From a virus, in IMG/VR virus record IMGVR_UViG_3300026518_000664, positions 1 through 24,309 of that record: 24,309 nt of DNA. One strand, given 5' to 3'. Made by a program: the position numbers and the translations under genes. The notes under the pieces are model-generated. The model made no database searches, had not been told where the DNA came from, and saw nothing but the letters and a program-made list of their open reading frames with translations. This document shows, piece by piece, positions 16,608-23,315 of this stretch. Positions within the stretch are counted from its first letter, which is position 1, and each line of letters opens with the position of its first letter.

Positions 16608-18893
16608 TTACTCCTGAGCCGATGGTGCAGTGTCGCAGCGGTCGGATGGGTGGGTGTCTGCAACCACGCGAGGCAATGTGTTAAGTGTGTATGGGTTTCC
16701 AGCGACTAGGGCTGTGCAAATCGGGCAAGCATCGGGCGCAGGAATCCAATCAAATGAATCAGGGATTGCATCATCGGCAAGCTCTGCATCCCATTCGCCA
16801 CGCTTGGCTTTATCCCATGTCATGGCTGTTTCCGAGCGGGCGATTTGCTCCCACTTCCATGATGCGCCACCCATTTCGCGTTTCAGGTTGGCAGCGATAT
16901 TGATAGGATTATCACCCGCCGCAACACCAGCTTCTAACACGCGATGGATGCGTGGAATGAGCTTGTTTTCCATAAATTTTGTGAAATCTGTTTGGCTTGT
17001 TTTGAGGATTTCAGCCACGGCAGCCGCATTGCTTAATTCGCCAATGGGCGCTTCCAAACCTGTGCGCGTATAACCATCTATCACGCCCAATGCCCAAGCG
17101 CGCAAATAAGCTTGCGCCAATGCGCCTTGCGCCAAACCTTCGTTTTCTAAAATGTCGGATACAAACCCTGCAAGCTCGCCTGCAATCAATGCCTTGTCGG
17201 CATCGGTAAAGGTGAACCCATCGGGCTGCATGGCGTTTTGTGCGTTTGCTGATTCCAAGCCCAAGGCACGAACAATATACAAGGTGACTTCTTGCCATGC
17301 TTCATTGATGCCTTTCAAAGCATCGTTTTCGATTTTATCCATAGCTGGGTTGGCAATGGGTCGGGTTTCCAAATTGGTGAGGGTATGGTTATGGGTGTGC
17401 TGCGCAGCCTGATTGCTTGGCTTGGCTGCGCGTGGTGATAAGATATTATGCGTGGTAGTGGTTTTCTCACCATCGGCACTTTCTGTGGTCACTGAAATGG
17501 GTGTGTTTTTGTTTTCTGTTCCCGACCCAGCTTGCGGGGTGCGGTCTCGCAAAATATCCGATTGCGTGTTCATGAAGTTGGCTTGCGCTTTGGCAACAAT
17601 ATCCGACAAGTTCGGCTTATTAAATTCAATACGCCATGCTTTACGAACCATCCGAACCTTGTCCGCTGCAAAAGGGTCTTCAATCGCCACAAGTTCATCG
17701 CTCCATGAAATGCCAAGGGCGCGAAGATGGATTTTACACAACCGCTCAAGCTGCAACACTTCGCGGCTGTTTCTGTTCGCTGAACCTTGCTGCAACACTT
17801 CGCTTTGGTGCTTGGACATGCCTTGCACCGCACCTGTGTTGACACCCAACATCCAAGCGGGTTGACCTGTACCTGATGTAAGCTGCTCCACCACTTTGGT
17901 GATAGGAACATCAGCATCCAAGACCGTGCCTTCAGCACCAATGATTGAAATGGTCACTTCTGAATCTTTATCCACTGATGTGGCAAAATCAGCAGAATGA
18001 CCATTACGTTTGTTTTGCACGGCTGCTTGAAGCTGAGCAACCAGCGCCAAGCGTCGCACTTCTAAAGGGGTGTTGCCGTTGGCATCCACTTTATCACCAA
18101 GCTTGTTGCCGCACTTATACGACATGTGGTATGAAGGGTCGCCAAAACGCTCCCAAGTGTTGTCAATCGCATTGATGATGGTGAGCAGCGTTTCTGCGAA
18201 CACAGGCATGGAGCGCAATAGCGACACGCCATAGGCATCGGAATTTTCAACGCGGTATGCCAAGTAATGTATACGGCTTGCATCAAGCTCAACAAAACCT
18301 TTGCCATCAAAATATGCAGATGCCATGTTGATTGGGGTGCGGTGTTGCAAAATTTGTGCCACTTGCTCGGTGGCGGATGGGCGATGTGGAGTGCGAGATT
18401 TGGCAAGTGGGTTAAAATACCAAGCCAGTTCACCATTGGGTTTGCGTGAAGCGTGCATGGCTTTGGAATCGGCAACATTCAGCCTAAAAATACCTTGCGC
18501 ACCCAAAAGGTGCTCTGAAATCACAAAACCTTGCTCATGCGCTTCATCGCGCTGGGCGGCAACATATGCGCCCAAGCCAAACAGATTGTCGCCAACTTGC
18601 ACTTCTTGGATAAACTGATTTAAGGCTTCAATCGCCTGCGTATCTTCGCCGACCACGACAGGTGTGCCGTCCAAAAGATTGAAATTGTTGATGGCGGTAT
18701 CCAGCATGGGAATGGCTTCACGCAAGGCTTCATACAAGCCCGGCATGATTGCATTGCGCATATTGTCCTGAAACAAGTTGCTGTAAGCACCTTGACCCGC
18801 AGCGCTACGCGGCACGAGTTGCGACACCGCTGGCGATGATTCCACTTTATCAGCAGAAGGGGCGTTGAGGTCTATGACGTTGCTATCAGCCAT
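16608..18893 (-). CDS. Portal protein fused to a MuF-like C-terminal domain
   Basis: The protein has 761 residues from ATG 18893, the preferred start. An in-frame GTG at 18905 would add four. Residues up to about 430 look like a portal: a helical wing, NAIDNTWERFGDPSYHM in the clip/stem area, then GTGQPAWMLGVN. After a polar linker (about 455-515) comes a helical region ending in IARSETAMTWDKAKRG, the MuF-like signature, and then a terminal module with Cys723, Cys726, His748 and Cys753 that may bind zinc. Most phages encode portal and MuF proteins separately. The fused protein would form the DNA port and carry the minor head domain. The last about 50 residues match the plus-strand gene at 22154-22828. 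Confidence 0.85.
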   Translation of the reverse strand: MADSNVIDLNAPSADKVESSPAVSQLVPRSAAGQGAYSNLFQDNMRNAIMPGLYEALREAIPMLDTAINNFNLLDGTPVVVGEDTQAIEALNQFIQEVQVGDNLFGLGAYVAAQRDEAHEQGFVISEHLLGAQGIFRLNVADSKAMHASRKPNGELAWYFNPLAKSRTPHRPSATEQVAQILQHRTPINMASAYFDGKGFVELDASRIHYLAYRVENSDAYGVSLLRSMPVFAETLLTIINAIDNTWERFGDPSYHMSYKCGNKLGDKVDANGNTPLEVRRLALVAQLQAAVQNKRNGHSADFATSVDKDSEVTISIIGAEGTVLDADVPITKVVEQLTSGTGQPAWMLGVNTGAVQGMSKHQSEVLQQGSANRNSREVLQLERLCKIHLRALGISWSDELVAIEDPFAADKVRMVRKAWRIEFNKPNLSDIVAKAQANFMNTQSDILRDRTPQAGSGTENKNTPISVTTESADGEKTTTTHNILSPRAAKPSNQAAQHTHNHTLTNLETRPIANPAMDKIENDALKGINEAWQEVTLYIVRALGLESANAQNAMQPDGFTFTDADKALIAGELAGFVSDILENEGLAQGALAQAYLRAWALGVIDGYTRTGLEAPIGELSNAAAVAEILKTSQTDFTKFMENKLIPRIHRVLEAGVAAGDNPINIAANLKREMGGASWKWEQIARSETAMTWDKAKRGEWDAELADDAIPDSFDWIPAPDACPICTALVAGNPYTLNTLPRVVADTHPSDRCDTAPSAQE

Positions 18894-18964
18894 GTTTGCC
18901 GCCACTGGTCAACGGGTAATTGCTTTGCTTTTTCCCACACATGCGCCGAACTAGAACAACAACA

Positions 18965-19012: not shown

Positions 19013-20953
19013 TTATCGGTAGGCAGCACCGCAAGCAAAGGCATCATGCCCGCCATAGCTTCCTGCTAAAATATGGTTCATAATCAAAAGCCTGTCGGCA
19101 TCCACCAAGTGGTCATTTTTGTTGGGGAACGAGCGCCAGCGTGTGCCTTGGGTGAAGACTTGGCTGGTGTACATCTGCACCATTTCAGGGTCTAGCGGAT
19201 ATTGGGCTTTGCGCTTTTGCATCGCCATAGACAACAAATCAGTGCCTAGCTCTTTGCCGTTGACGCGCATGGGTTTGTCTGTTTTGTTGTCCAACACAGT
19301 ATCCCCATTCAAATCCACAGCATCAAATGCCGCGCCAAACATCACGCCCAGCAACCTTTCTTCAAAATTTCTATCGAGATAACGCTCTTCTGCATGAAGC
19401 TGCCCAATGACGGCTACGCCTGCCGAGCCTTGGTCAACGCCCCAGCATGGGCGCGAGGCTTGCGGGTCTATCAACATATCAATGGCGCGGATGAACTCAG
19501 CTTGTATCAAATAGTCCACACCCTTCATGTGCAGCCTAGAGTGGCGGCGCAATGAGCCGCTTCTATGCTCTGCTACCAAGATTTCGGTGGGGTCTTGGCT
19601 TAGCCCAAGGTCGCAGCCTGCCCAATGCTCGCCATCGCGGATATGCCCAAAAGCTTCAAGCACCAGCCGCTCGGCAATATCGCGCCATTCATCCACATCA
19701 TTCCATTGCGACACATGCTCATCGCGGTCAAAAATAAGCACTTCTCGACCTTCACAATCACCCACCATCTCAAAGCTGCACAGCTCAATGCCTATGCTGC
19801 TTTCTGATTTATTGGCGACAACTTTAAGCCTGCGGAACTCGACAATATCTGCCAAGACTGGTTTCAGCGTTGAAAATGGGAACACCGCATTGGCTCTATC
19901 GCCATCGCGCCCAAGCACATTCTGCTGATAACCTGGCGAATCTTGCCCGCCAAAGTTTTTAATGAACTGACGGCGGCGCTCCTCGCTCCAAAAGGGTTCG
20001 GGCATTTGCGTTTTATCCCAGTTGAACAAGACGCGAGGAACATCTTTACCTTTGGGCACACCATTGGGGAAGCGGCGCTTAAACTCGGCAAACGGCATAG
20101 CACTGGATGCCCAGCGGTAGAACTCACAATCCCTATCACCATCAGGCACGGAATATACGCGCCATTGACCTGTGGGCTTGCGACCACGCTCGACTTCTGT
20201 CCAATGCTTACTGTTTTTCAGCAGCGCAACCTCATCGCCCAATATCCAAGCATTGGCATGGATACCGCGAAATGCTGCGCCATTGATGCCCGCTGGACGA
20301 AAATCAATCACTGCCCTGCCATCGCTATGCTTGAAATTCATGGTGATGTACGGCGCTTTTTTCAGCCAACCCTTTTTGCACATGGCTTGCAGGTGCGGAT
20401 TAAGCTCAATTTGCTCTTCAATCGCATTGGCAATATCTGCCAGATGACCTTGCAGCGGGGCATAAACAAAGGATTGCACCCTGCGAATGGCATCGCCTGT
20501 GGCTGATTTTAGCTCTAGGTTGTGTAGCGTAGATGCGCTCCACAATAGCAGGGTGATGATTTCCCTTGTTTTTCCCACCTCTGCCCCATCCTTATGCACC
20601 ACATCGCCTTGGCGATAATTCACGCTTTCAAGCTGGTAATTCCAAAACTCATACGGAGCCATAGTGTCAGGGTCTTTCAAATTCATGTTTGCCCAGAGAT
20701 GGGGGCGGGCGTTGGTGAGCATCCAAGCATATTGCTCCACATTGAGCTGGCTGCCATCGGTGGCATGATAATCGCCGCGCATCAAGCCCTCAAAATTCAA
20801 GCCATGCGGCGCTTGCACCACCCGACCAAAGGCATCCATAAAGACTGTCTGCCGCTTCAACGTCTGCTCAATCGAGCGCTGCATAAGCTCGGTATAGTTG
20901 ACGATTTGCGATGGCTGGCGTGGCGACATGGCGCGATGTGTATCAGCCTTCAT
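19013..20953 (-). CDS. Terminase large subunit
   Basis: The protein has 646 residues. The ATPase motifs are a Walker A variant at about 121-129 (KDGAEVGKT) and a Walker B at about 237-241 (ILGDE). The nuclease part begins near WAGCDLGLSQDPT with Asp448, followed by Asp507 (WGVDQGS) and Asp618 (HLVDADR), fitting the three-acid RNase H-like centre of large terminases. It would pack DNA through the portal encoded next to it. ATG 20953 overlaps the Bro-N stop by 11 bases with no clear ribosome binding site, so translation is probably coupled. I see no separate small terminase upstream. The gene is bracketed by a direct repeat. Confidence 0.88.
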   Translation of the reverse strand: MKADTHRAMSPRQPSQIVNYTELMQRSIEQTLKRQTVFMDAFGRVVQAPHGLNFEGLMRGDYHATDGSQLNVEQYAWMLTNARPHLWANMNLKDPDTMAPYEFWNYQLESVNYRQGDVVHKDGAEVGKTREIITLLLWSASTLHNLELKSATGDAIRRVQSFVYAPLQGHLADIANAIEEQIELNPHLQAMCKKGWLKKAPYITMNFKHSDGRAVIDFRPAGINGAAFRGIHANAWILGDEVALLKNSKHWTEVERGRKPTGQWRVYSVPDGDRDCEFYRWASSAMPFAEFKRRFPNGVPKGKDVPRVLFNWDKTQMPEPFWSEERRRQFIKNFGGQDSPGYQQNVLGRDGDRANAVFPFSTLKPVLADIVEFRRLKVVANKSESSIGIELCSFEMVGDCEGREVLIFDRDEHVSQWNDVDEWRDIAERLVLEAFGHIRDGEHWAGCDLGLSQDPTEILVAEHRSGSLRRHSRLHMKGVDYLIQAEFIRAIDMLIDPQASRPCWGVDQGSAGVAVIGQLHAEERYLDRNFEERLLGVMFGAAFDAVDLNGDTVLDNKTDKPMRVNGKELGTDLLSMAMQKRKAQYPLDPEMVQMYTSQVFTQGTRWRSFPNKNDHLVDADRLLIMNHILAGSYGGHDAFACGAAYR

Positions 20954-21677
20954 CGGAAATGGTTAGGGGTAGAGCTTCTTCCGTCACGCCCTGCATAAAA
21001 TGATAAAACCGCTCTGCTTTGGGCATTCGGCTGATTTCAGCCAAAGCTAACGCACCTTCTTTTGCCAAGGTGTTTAACACTTTTTTGCGCCCCATCATGT
21101 CGATATGGGATAAAAGCAGCTTATATTTGTTGTCCAATCGGTGCATCACACCGCCGATGCCAACATAACCCATGGCATAAATGCAATCCACAGCCACATA
21201 GCGCGATAATCCTTCATGCTTGACCACGCGAATCAAAAAGCCTTCAAAACTGATGGTGGCATCCCCCATCATTTTATAGCCCCAAGGCAGGGTCTGTTGG
21301 GAAGATGGGGGCGATAGCTGAGGATGATGGCGCGGCGCGGGCTGGCTGGCATACGAACCTGTTTTGCGGATAGACGGCAGCACTTCGGATGTGACCCACT
21401 TGCGAAACGCCTTGGCTTCATCTTTGCGCGATTTGAAAATCAGATGATACATGCCTGATTCGGATACAACGTTAAAATCTCTTTCTTCGCCCATAGCACC
21501 CTTACCAGTAGTTAGGGTGCTTTCGTCATCATCGAGCATAGAAAGTGCTTTTGTGACGTTCGCAAGTCCAAGAATTTTGCAGATGTCTGCGGCAACAAAC
21601 CAAACTTGTCCATCATCGCCAATGCTGGTGCGTAGTTTCGGAGCTGATGGCGTGTAGTTGAATATTTGCTGATTCAT
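20943..21677 (-). CDS. Bro-N domain protein (antirepressor-like)
   Basis: The protein has 244 residues. Residues about 5-110 match the Bro-N domain: VWFVAADICKILGLANVTKA, then FNVVSESGMYHLIFKSRK, then AFRKWVTSEVLPSIRKTGSY. The linker is Pro/Gln/Ser-rich, and the C-terminal half is helical (SRYVAVDCIYAMGYVGIGGV). Such proteins usually act as antirepressors or DNA-binding regulators. Its place directly before the large terminase, with overlapping genes, is unusual and is where a small terminase would be expected. The C-terminus ends in EALPLTISDEG, repeated after the terminase gene. Confidence 0.82.
   Translation of the reverse strand: MNQQIFNYTPSAPKLRTSIGDDGQVWFVAADICKILGLANVTKALSMLDDDESTLTTGKGAMGEERDFNVVSESGMYHLIFKSRKDEAKAFRKWVTSEVLPSIRKTGSYASQPAPRHHPQLSPPSSQQTLPWGYKMMGDATISFEGFLIRVVKHEGLSRYVAVDCIYAMGYVGIGGVMHRLDNKYKLLLSHIDMMGRKKVLNTLAKEGALALAEISRMPKAERFYHFMQGVTEEALPLTISDEG
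20952..20971. repeat. Direct repeat copy 2, at the Bro-N/terminase junction
   Basis: This copy overlaps the end of the Bro-N gene and the first two bases of the terminase gene, and matches 18965-18984 in 19 of 20 positions. Together the two copies border the terminase reading frame almost exactly, which suggests a recombination or cassette-exchange event. Confidence 0.8.
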
Positions 21678-21880
21678 GATTGCACCGCCACATTCAAGTC
21701 GCTGCTGATGCGCTGGATTTCTGCATCCATGCTTAGCAGGGTGAAATACAAAGCTTCATCATCGCCAAGGTGGGCTAAGATATACTCAAAGCGGTAGTGC
21801 AAGGCATCGACTTTATCAATGCTGTCTAAGACTGGGCTAATATGGGGTGGTTTTTGGGGTTGTGCGGCGGTTTTACTCAT
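21674..21880 (-). CDS. Hypothetical small protein, first gene of the head operon
   Basis: The protein has 68 residues. After a Pro/Gln-rich start (SKTAAQPQKPPHISPV) comes a helical region (VDALHYRFEYILAHLGDDEA, then LLSMDAEIQRISSDLN). AAAGGAG lies about eight bases before ATG 21880, a strong site. The stop overlaps the Bro-N start as ATGA. No family is recognised. It is the leading gene of the minus-strand late block and the one nearest the divergent promoter region, so a regulatory or small-terminase-like role is possible but unsupported. Confidence 0.65.
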   Translation of the reverse strand: MSKTAAQPQKPPHISPVLDSIDKVDALHYRFEYILAHLGDDEALYFTLLSMDAEIQRISSDLNVAVQS

Positions 21881-22118
21881 GGTGAAGCTCCTTTCATTTT
21901 TGAATGGACACTTTTTGAAGAAGTGTCGGGTGTTTCAAACCGTGAAAGACGGCGGTGGTATTCCCCATAAAGGGTTTTTTATTCCCACCACACCCGAACT
22001 AAAACTTAGTTCAAGGCACAAAAAATCCAAGATGTTCGACCTTGGTTGTCGCTTTCAGGGTTTGAAGCCCTGCCACAACTGTAGTCATAAGCTTGCATCT
22101 TTGTCAAATATGGTTTAA
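21879..22118 (+). CDS. Doubtful plus-strand ORF across the divergent region (80 aa)
   Basis: This frame stays open from ATG 21879 for 80 codons through almost the whole intergenic region, which is longer than expected by chance for this composition. The peptide is basic, with GGGIPHKGFFIPTTPELK in the middle and CHNC near the end. There is no good ribosome binding site, and it starts opposite the first codon of the 68-aa gene. It may be a small regulatory or leader peptide, a gene remnant, or chance. I give it low weight. Confidence 0.22.
   Translation: MVKLLSFLNGHFLKKCRVFQTVKDGGGIPHKGFFIPTTPELKLSSRHKKSKMFDLGCRFQGLKPCHNCSHKLASLSNMV
21907..21927. repeat. Inverted repeat in the head-operon leader
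   Basis: GACACTT and AAGTGTC form perfect 7-bp arms around the seven bases TTTGAAG. It lies 27 bases before the first gene of the head operon, so it could be an operator or a leader hairpin near the ribosome binding site. The same TTTGAAG sits in the loop of the inverted repeat at 22056-22072. Confidence 0.6.
21996..22012. promoter_or_regulatory. 17-bp operator-like palindrome
   Basis: GAACTAA and TTAGTTC are perfect 7-bp arms around AAC. The size and symmetry match binding sites of dimeric helix-turn-helix phage repressors. It lies in the middle of the divergent region, where one protein could control both directions. No second copy is evident in the window, and no repressor gene is visible here. 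Confidence 0.5.
22056..22072. repeat. Short inverted repeat with shared loop
   Basis: CAGGG and CCCTG flank TTTGAAG, the same loop sequence as the repeat at 21907-21927. No T-run follows on either strand, so it is not an intrinsic terminator. Confidence 0.4.
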
Positions 22119-22153
22119 AAATTGCATGGGTAATCATCAGGGGGCATCCAACC

Positions 22154-22828
22154 ATGAAAACTTTGTATATTGCACTTCTAACGCTTGTCATGTGGCTATT
22201 TGTCCTGATGGCTTTTGCTATGTTGATGATGGTTGTTTTTAGCGATAAAAACTTGCTTATCCCTGCCGTGCTTCTCTTTGCCACACCAGCTTTGGGCGCA
22301 TGGTATTTGAGGAAAAGAGCGAAGGAGGTAAACATCATGGTCATGTTTCCACAACGCAAGTTGAAGAATAATAAACCTGAAAAGGACATCCACTGCCCGC
22401 ATTGCCAAGCGGCGTTTGAAGAAATGCCAAAGAAAAAAAGACGATGCCCATACTGCAAGGAATGGATATGGCCTATGCGCCCACCTGGTATGCAGCACAA
22501 ACGGCTGACAACCGTTGAACAAGCTTTGGCTTGGAAGCTTGAAGATGCAAAGCTGGACAGCCCACTTAGTTATGCGCGAGAGCTTACGAAACAAAGCTTG
22601 CCATCGACTCAAGCTTTTGACGATGCTGCTGAACAAGAATTTGCTGAGTTTCGTGAAGAAGTTAATGATGGTTTGATTCCTGATGCGTTTGATTTCATAG
22701 CTGCCCCCGATAGCTGCAATATATGCAAGCAATTTGCGCGCAATAGCCCCTACAAACTTGCTGATTTGCCAAAACCAGTGGTGGATACCCATGATGACTG
22801 TAGATGTTGTGTAGCTCCTCATGCCTAA
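22154..22828 (+). CDS. Membrane zinc-ribbon protein with MuF-type C-terminal module (moron candidate)
   Basis: The protein has 224 residues. Two hydrophobic segments (about 4-29 and 33-50) anchor it in the inner membrane. A zinc ribbon follows, with Cys81, Cys84, Cys98 and Cys101 (CPHC, CPYC), then a helical acidic region. The last 50 residues contain Cys188, Cys191, His213, Cys216 and Cys218. They match the end of the phage's own portal/MuF protein in 26 of 50 aligned positions without gaps (IPD-FD-I-APD-C-IC, then LP and DTH). It is the only convincing plus-strand gene, lying between two minus-strand operons. A GGGGG box lies about ten bases before ATG 22154, and a much stronger site precedes internal ATG 22337. 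The function is unknown. Interference with capsid or DNA entry of other phages is my inference. Confidence 0.8.
   Translation: MKTLYIALLTLVMWLFVLMAFAMLMMVVFSDKNLLIPAVLLFATPALGAWYLRKRAKEVNIMVMFPQRKLKNNKPEKDIHCPHCQAAFEEMPKKKRRCPYCKEWIWPMRPPGMQHKRLTTVEQALAWKLEDAKLDSPLSYARELTKQSLPSTQAFDDAAEQEFAEFREEVNDGLIPDAFDFIAAPDSCNICKQFARNSPYKLADLPKPVVDTHDDCRCCVAPHA
22337..22828 (+). CDS. Alternative soluble form of the zinc-ribbon/MuF-tail protein
   Basis: AAGGAGGT lies seven bases before ATG 22337-22339, which is codon 62 of the longer gene and in the same frame. This is one of the best ribosome binding sites in the window and far better than the one at 22154. Starting here gives a 163-aa protein that lacks both membrane segments but keeps the zinc ribbon and the C-terminal module. 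Either both forms are made or this is the real start. Sequence alone cannot decide. Confidence 0.6.
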   Translation: MVMFPQRKLKNNKPEKDIHCPHCQAAFEEMPKKKRRCPYCKEWIWPMRPPGMQHKRLTTVEQALAWKLEDAKLDSPLSYARELTKQSLPSTQAFDDAAEQEFAEFREEVNDGLIPDAFDFIAAPDSCNICKQFARNSPYKLADLPKPVVDTHDDCRCCVAPHA

Positions 22829-23106
22829 CTTCCACCTTGCATACGGATAGCCGATGGGTTGCGCACAATATCCAAAATCGTTACGGCAAATGCACCGGGG
22901 CCTTTCTTTCGCGCCCGCACATATTTGCCGCGTGGGGTGGCGATAAGCTGCTGTTGCTTGAGCGGGGTGTAGGCGTGACGCCAATACATCTGCCGCACTG
23001 AACCCTGAAAGCCTGTGAGCCGCTGCATCTCTTCAGGATTAAAATGCCCGCGCACCACAATGCGCTCGCCAGTCTTAATCAGAAACTCGCCATCATTCGC
23101 GCTCAT
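22825..23106 (-). CDS. Hypothetical protein, last gene of the right-arm operon
   Basis: This 93-aa protein starts at ATG 23106. GGAGG lies four bases upstream, and the start overlaps the previous stop as ATGA. It is basic and soluble: ERIVVRGHFNPEEMQRLTGF is followed by VRQMYWRHAYTPLKQQQL and by RGKYVRARKKGPGAFAVTIL. The basic middle could bind nucleic acid. I recognise no family. Its stop overlaps the stop region of the plus-strand membrane gene, so the two genes converge with no terminator between them. Confidence 0.65.
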   Translation of the reverse strand: MSANDGEFLIKTGERIVVRGHFNPEEMQRLTGFQGSVRQMYWRHAYTPLKQQQLIATPRGKYVRARKKGPGAFAVTILDIVRNPSAIRMQGGS

Positions 23107-23315
23107 GCTTCCTCCAAGGGCGGGTAGCCCATTTTTTTGCGGTAATACCAATCAACAGGCAGCTTTTTCGCATTCGTAACTCGTTTCCAAATCTCGGGCA
23201 TGGCTGCGTAGGCGTTGACGTTTTTTGCTTCATCTATCGCATCACACACTGCATCTAGCCCTATGTTGTCGTGCGCGTCTATGATGCGCTCCAGTATTTT
23301 TCTTAAATCACTCAT
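23103..23315 (-). CDS. Hypothetical small protein
   Basis: This 70-aa protein starts at ATG 23315, in an ATGA overlap with the preceding gene. An in-frame TTG at 23324 is less likely. It is helical: LRKILERIIDAHDNIGLDAV, then MPEIWKRVTNAKKLPVDW and a basic YYRKKMGYPPL end. No family is recognised. The coupled overlap on both sides shows it belongs to the right-arm operon. Confidence 0.62.
   Translation of the reverse strand: MSDLRKILERIIDAHDNIGLDAVCDAIDEAKNVNAYAAMPEIWKRVTNAKKLPVDWYYRKKMGYPPLEEA

Follow-up and report, generated by a model that had tools for sequence, protein, structure and literature searches.

A predicted membrane zinc-ribbon protein with a MuF-type C-terminal domain in a variable accessory slot of a temperate phage lineage

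Why would a phage whose portal protein already ends in a MuF-type module encode a second such module on the opposite strand, behind a predicted membrane anchor? The question is raised by P0001, a protein of 224 residues whose gene lies at 22154-22828 on the plus strand of a virus record of 24,309 bases, the whole of which was analysed and is called the window here. The portal, terminase and antirepressor genes are on the minus strand; the first reading of the sequence alone had noted that the gene is on the opposite strand. Upstream of P0001 there is a strong ribosome-binding sequence, AGGGGG (22139-22144, plus strand), and GGGGGCATCC, with the GGGGG core, is conserved in the sister phage L003. 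Residues 1-58 (22154-22327, plus strand) are predicted by hydropathy and AlphaFold2 to cross the membrane as two helices with a short loop between them; the two hydrophobic segments have Kyte-Doolittle means of 2.58 and 1.84, and the model places long helices at residues 2-29 and 32-58. Because R53-K54-R55 follows the second helix, both ends of this hairpin are predicted to face the cytosol. A four-cysteine zinc ribbon (C81, C84, C98 and C101) and its linker occupy residues 81-130 (22394-22543, plus strand) in the comparison of the two phages, and this part includes the linker WIWPMRPPGMQHKRLTTVEQALAWKLE, which is invariant between the window and L003 phages. The ribbon probably binds zinc. 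The two membrane segments and the four-cysteine ribbon of the earlier reading were thus borne out by hydropathy, the modelled helices and the cysteine positions. The remainder, residues 135-224 (22556-22825, plus strand), is a MuF-type C-terminal domain according to alignments, a profile, the AlphaFold2 model and BFVD; it carries CxxC...DTH...CRC and a deletion of nine residues at the MuF helix motif. Scans of P0001 against Pfam, PHROGs, NCBIfam and padloc gave no toxin domain.

The L003 phage (record G001) encodes a homologue, P0006, which is 59% identical to P0001 over the best segment. In residues 1-130 the dN between the two is 0.15 against a dS of 1.6, and the changes by codon position number 24, 15 and 58. 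From the homologue, the low dN relative to dS and the excess of third-position changes, P0001 is judged to be a genuine gene. Residues 78-130 are 92% identical (dN 0.045), whereas residues 131-224 are 33% identical with a dN of 0.69 and a saturated dS. This contrast indicates that the ribbon is strongly constrained and that the tail changes fast, and such divergence is compatible with changing targets or with a loss of constraint. The tail of P0006 retains APDxCxxC and CRC and has gained one CxxC, and its score of 12.6 bits by the portal-tail profile equals that of the best shuffle.

The order of genes in the G001 record runs from pyrG (CTP synthase) through tRNA-Gly, tRNA-Cys and tRNA-Leu to a tyrosine integrase, with a CII-like regulator later, and P0006 is carried by an integrated prophage. 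Immediately ahead of the small terminase-like gene, close relatives have another tyrosine recombinase gene (L003 9504-10475, L004 221-1198, L009 237-1307 and others); G001 has this recombinase besides the integrase next to its tRNAs. No relative with the full P0001 architecture was found in the genome_contigs, phages and plasmids sets, and L003 was the sole relative among the viral contigs. L011 had been considered as a further relative and was rejected as an unrelated zinc-ribbon match. A search of 46 lineage records for the hairpin and ribbon gave nothing except one weak, chance-like match, and a terminase search of genome_contigs gave no relative.

The portal/MuF fusion of the window phage is a protein of 765 residues (16608-18905, minus strand; PHROG portal 2.4e-30, minor head protein 8.1e-10), and its residues 665-763 (16617-16913, minus strand) were found by tblastn to be the counterpart of P0001 residues 135-224. 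The final 51 residues of P0001 align without gaps to the end of this portal with 26 identities, the CxxC, DTH and RC positions being aligned, and the best of 20,000 shuffles reached 13. The gapless match of 26 in 50 residues in the sequence-only reading was therefore real, but its extent was too short, as the homology covers about 90 residues (135-224). Residues 163-224 matched the portal with an E of 5.7e-15, and the gapped tblastn alignment of residues 135-224 with portal residues 665-763 showed 36% identity with an E of about 8e-16. A profile made of 42 portal tails scored P0001 at 54.7 bits, against 12.5 bits for the best of 300 shuffles. Minor head families in PHROGs were reached weakly by P0001, and minor head proteins of Enterococcus, Lactobacillus and Lactococcus phages were weak matches.

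In the AlphaFold2 model, the pLDDT is above 90 over most of residues 160-224, and the structural elements of the tail have the same order as in the portal's domain; this model is not independent of the portal tails, because the input alignment held them. The top BFVD matches of the tail include MuF-like and minor capsid proteins, none of them below an E of 0.001, and a fold search of the PDB with the MuF tail gave no meaningful match. At the curated cut-offs of PF04233 and TIGR01641 P0001 had no match, and the portal itself reached only 13.0 and 21.1 bits. MuF and SPP1 gp7 minor head proteins (PF04233, TIGR01641, PHROG) have the same C-terminal zinc knuckle, APDxCxxC...HxxCRC, and in the models their helices and strands follow one another as in P0001; the knuckle positions CxxC...H...C are present in the alignments at the C-terminus of P0001. 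Taken together, the profile, the comparison with minor head proteins and the fold support a MuF-type tail. P0001 differs from MuF/gp7 proteins in that it lies away from the portal (3.2 kb from the portal gene and on the other strand, neither beside it nor fused to it), has the hairpin and ribbon in front, falls below the Pfam cut-off and is without the MuF helix motif. This core motif of the lineage, W-x-W-E-Q-I-A-R-[ST]-E, is deleted or diverged in both P0001 and P0006.

The sequence-only reading had called the tail a copy of the phage's own module, and this part was not upheld. The BLAST scores of P0001 were 77.8 bits with L013, 76.6 with L012 and 69.3 with both L014 and L020, all above the 66.6 bits of its own portal, and several sister portals share 27-28 of 51 residues with the tail against 26 of 51 in its own. 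In the tree, the P0001 tail is placed among the closest portal relatives of the window phage on a long end branch of 3.25, though P0001, L083 and L050 have long branches that make the tree unreliable for them. In the tail, the deletion at the conserved MuF helix motif removed nine residues. From the sister-portal scores, the long branch and the lost residues, the tail is judged to derive from the lineage's domain, to be old and to have diverged. A recent duplication of the window phage's portal end, for which the 26 of 51 identities could be quoted, is refuted by the scores and the tree, and we give it hardly any credence. The portal/MuF proteins of L038, L039, L023, L027 and L056 have long extensions past the zinc module, several of about 250 residues or more, which may be MuF-type cargo. 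The portal of the window phage has no extension after the zinc module, and the idea that P0001 is an immunity protein against a portal-fused toxin was rejected for this reason.

The gene is located in a slot whose content varies between relatives. One boundary is g108 (22825-23151, minus strand), which is convergent with P0001 and has homologues by the slot in L003, L004, L009, L072/L074 and L077; the stop of P0001 overlaps the stop of g108 by a few bases. The far boundary is the large terminase gene (19013-20953, minus strand; 25% to a phage protein annotated as terminase large subunit and 35% to a Microcystis phage protein), which was found in 41 of 46 lineage records. In the window, the slot holds P0001, a Bro-N antirepressor gene (20943-21677, minus strand; Pfam Bro-N 5.3e-29, PHROG antirepressor 3.2e-45; 54% identical in L003) and, in the same orientation as the antirepressor, an ORF of 68 residues to which the family scans assigned no family (21674-21880, minus strand). 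In L003 it contains HicAB, the Bro-N antirepressor, an ORF of 66 residues and P0006. A ParB-domain DNA methylase and an HTH gene occupy it in L074/L072, and a MazF/PemK-like toxin in L077. In L009 only about 0.15 kb separates g108 from the terminase, with neither P0001 nor an antirepressor, and in L004 the two genes are adjacent and the slot is empty. Among the sister phages that share this terminase and portal, most have no P0001. The G+C content at the locus is 44-46% against about 50% around it, a modest dip. The variable cargo, the empty slot and the G+C dip are marks of a moron site, and together with the opposite strand and the homologue in an integrated prophage they agree with the moron-like character that had been proposed. 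The gene does not stand alone between two operons, as had also been proposed, since its accessory cassette also contains the antirepressor and a possible sRNA, and the stop codons of P0001 and g108 overlap.

About 230 bp between P0001 and the 68-residue ORF are conserved between the window and L003 phages. This antirepressor leader region contains an sRNA-Xcc1-like RNA (21917-21999, minus strand; 43.7 bits), with a counterpart at 5759-5842 of L003 (minus strand; 43.3 bits); both scores are below the Rfam cut-off of 53, and the E is about 6e-6 in each phage. In Xanthomonas integrons, sRNA-Xcc1 is found upstream of symE (PMC12444791), which suggests that the RNA seen here may be a mobile control RNA. 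A terminator-like hairpin of the intrinsic type, CCAAGGTCGAACATCTTGG followed by a T-run (22027-22045, minus strand), may separate the operons, and a promoter-like TTGACA-N18-TACAGT (22078-22107, minus strand) is conserved in position in L003 as TTGACA-N18-TAAAGT; promoter- and terminator-like sites are no more numerous in this region than expected by chance, and these are candidates. On the plus strand, no promoter upstream of P0001 passed the promoter scan. A 7-bp inverted repeat, GACACTT...AAGTGTC (21911-21931), lies just upstream of the 68-residue ORF and is possibly an operator.

The portal-tail profile was also run over 47 whole lineage records. All 47 had a main portal or MuF match, and a credible second match was present in only four; the sample is small, contains many fragments and was gathered with the P0001 tail, so these rates are not to be generalised. 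The second matches were in the window (57.9 bits), G010 (63.9 bits), G041 (34.4 bits) and G001 (P0006, weak at 14.0 bits), each of them encoded opposite the portal strand. G040 also gave an extra match, on the same strand as the portal, but its 9.2 bits were too low for it to be counted. In G041, the match is the end of a non-portal ORF of 190 residues, L083 (L086:3402-3974, minus strand), which is divergent from HicAB and immediately precedes the small terminase-like gene; a Rha antirepressor is encoded about 1.2 kb beyond. In G010, it is the end of another non-portal ORF, L084 (L087:5147-5725, minus strand). An XRE repressor-like gene and a lipoprotein gene (Pfam Lipoprotein_16) precede this ORF, and a Cro-like HTH gene diverges from it; such a place is a usual one for lysogeny genes. 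The two ORFs have no zinc ribbon or hairpin, their phages are more distant, and searches for relatives returned only the ORFs themselves. It is possible, though we would not regard it as probable, that temperate phages of this lineage have repeatedly recast the portal/MuF C-terminal domain as small accessory proteins, some of them membrane-anchored, which are encoded opposite the portal strand with antirepressor, repressor or toxin-antitoxin genes and serve as capsid-part mimics that sense or block the portal or packaging complexes of rivals.

For P0001 itself, our tentative best explanation, held at well short of even confidence, is that it is a moron whose tail mimics MuF and engages the portal or packaging components of other phages, which would amount to exclusion. 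P0001 would be an accessory gene of a temperate phage that shares its cassette with an antirepressor and is read in the direction opposite to the late genes. Its hairpin is predicted to be seated in the inner membrane, with the ribbon and the MuF-type domain toward the cytosol. The tail is derived from the portal/MuF C-terminal domain of the lineage and has diverged since, with the zinc-knuckle fold kept and the core helix motif lost. In a lysogen or early in infection, the protein would display this MuF-like module at the membrane, where it could engage another phage's portal ring or its packaging partners and block head assembly, packaging or DNA entry. Alternatively, such engagement could cluster the P0001 membrane protein.

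Several precedents bear on this proposal. The SPP1 portal binds gp7/MuF strongly (PMC6316719), which makes a MuF-type tail a plausible portal ligand. In P22, the late operon contains a variable region in which sieA is found with an antirepressor (PMC8022706); the immI/sieA region is comparable in combining variable late-operon content, an antirepressor and a superinfection-exclusion gene. P0001 has the SieA-type layout, a predicted membrane protein near an antirepressor in a temperate phage, but unlike sieA it matched no known exclusion family in the family scans and bears a capsid-type module, so that an exclusion role would be by analogy. RIP1 and TerI are prophage proteins acting on terminase (conference report PMC12908700), and are similar in that prophage proteins are reported to act on the packaging components of other phages; they target terminase, whereas P0001 bears a module of the portal/MuF component. 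The SPP1, P22 sieA and RIP1/TerI cases together suggest membrane mimicry of a capsid part against competing phages as the proposed action. MuF polymorphic toxins (PMC5576092) also join a MuF-type module to an unrelated domain in temperate phages, but there MuF is N-terminal, the gene is by the portal gene and the toxin is C-terminal, while P0001 has the module at its C-terminus and showed no toxin domain. Phage morons and accessory hotspots (PMC9122126) are comparable as extra genes in a slot that varies between relatives, with toxin-antitoxin and methylase genes.

Several observations count against MuF mimicry. P0001 is without the MuF helix segment, a possible portal contact. The P0006 tail at shuffle level is not significant alone, so the module may be dispensable. 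The padloc scan of P0001 matched no defence family of note, a single weak match being disregarded. Moreover, MuF is fused to the portal in this lineage, and no free MuF is expected to enter the cell. A less likely reading is that P0001 is a lysogenic-conversion or switch protein. Its ribbon and linker would then make contact with nucleic acid or with a regulator of the host or phage, and the MuF-type knuckle would be a zinc module of a generic kind. Such a protein may act together with the divergent antirepressor, one example being a membrane sensor by which induction is tuned. The ribbon and linker are the most conserved part and the tail is less so, as such a role would favour, and in both phages the gene is divergent from Bro-N across the conserved region with the sRNA-Xcc1-like RNA. 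A generic knuckle leaves the MuF-type tails of three otherwise unrelated small ORFs unexplained, and position is the sole tie to the antirepressor.

The lost helix segment, the long branch and the barely recognisable tail of P0006 would also be consistent with a tail that is a decaying recombination relic, the hairpin and ribbon alone being functional. We consider this quite unlikely, as P0001 keeps all the CxxC, H and CRC positions, its tail is modelled with high pLDDT (from an alignment that held portal tails), and P0006 retains APDxCxxC and CRC and gained a CxxC. Less likely again is an assembly factor of the phage's own, which would hold portals or initiation complexes at the membrane while heads are being assembled. 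The portal-type module, the predicted membrane anchor and the nearby terminase and portal genes would suit such a factor, but most sister phages that share the terminase and portal lack the gene, it is transcribed against the late genes, and the slot elsewhere holds toxin-antitoxin genes.

In the survey of muf genes, 614 were found in 611 phages, nearly always one per phage and usually near the portal (PMC5576092), which indicates that it is rare for a phage to have two MuF-type modules. It is unusual for an accessory slot to supply a second one that is membrane-anchored, as predicted here. The P0001 architecture is not described in the literature that we found; the MuF domain and the moron principle were already known, and it is their combination that this literature does not describe. 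The recurrence of small MuF-tailed ORFs opposite the portal strand leads to a simple testable prediction. If the mimicry proposal is true, CxxC...HxxCRC in a non-portal ORF would be a sequence handle for finding more cases, the portal/MuF interface would be one more part of the virion turned by prophages against their competitors, and capsid-part mimicry would be a kind of prophage immunity that the literature found does not describe.
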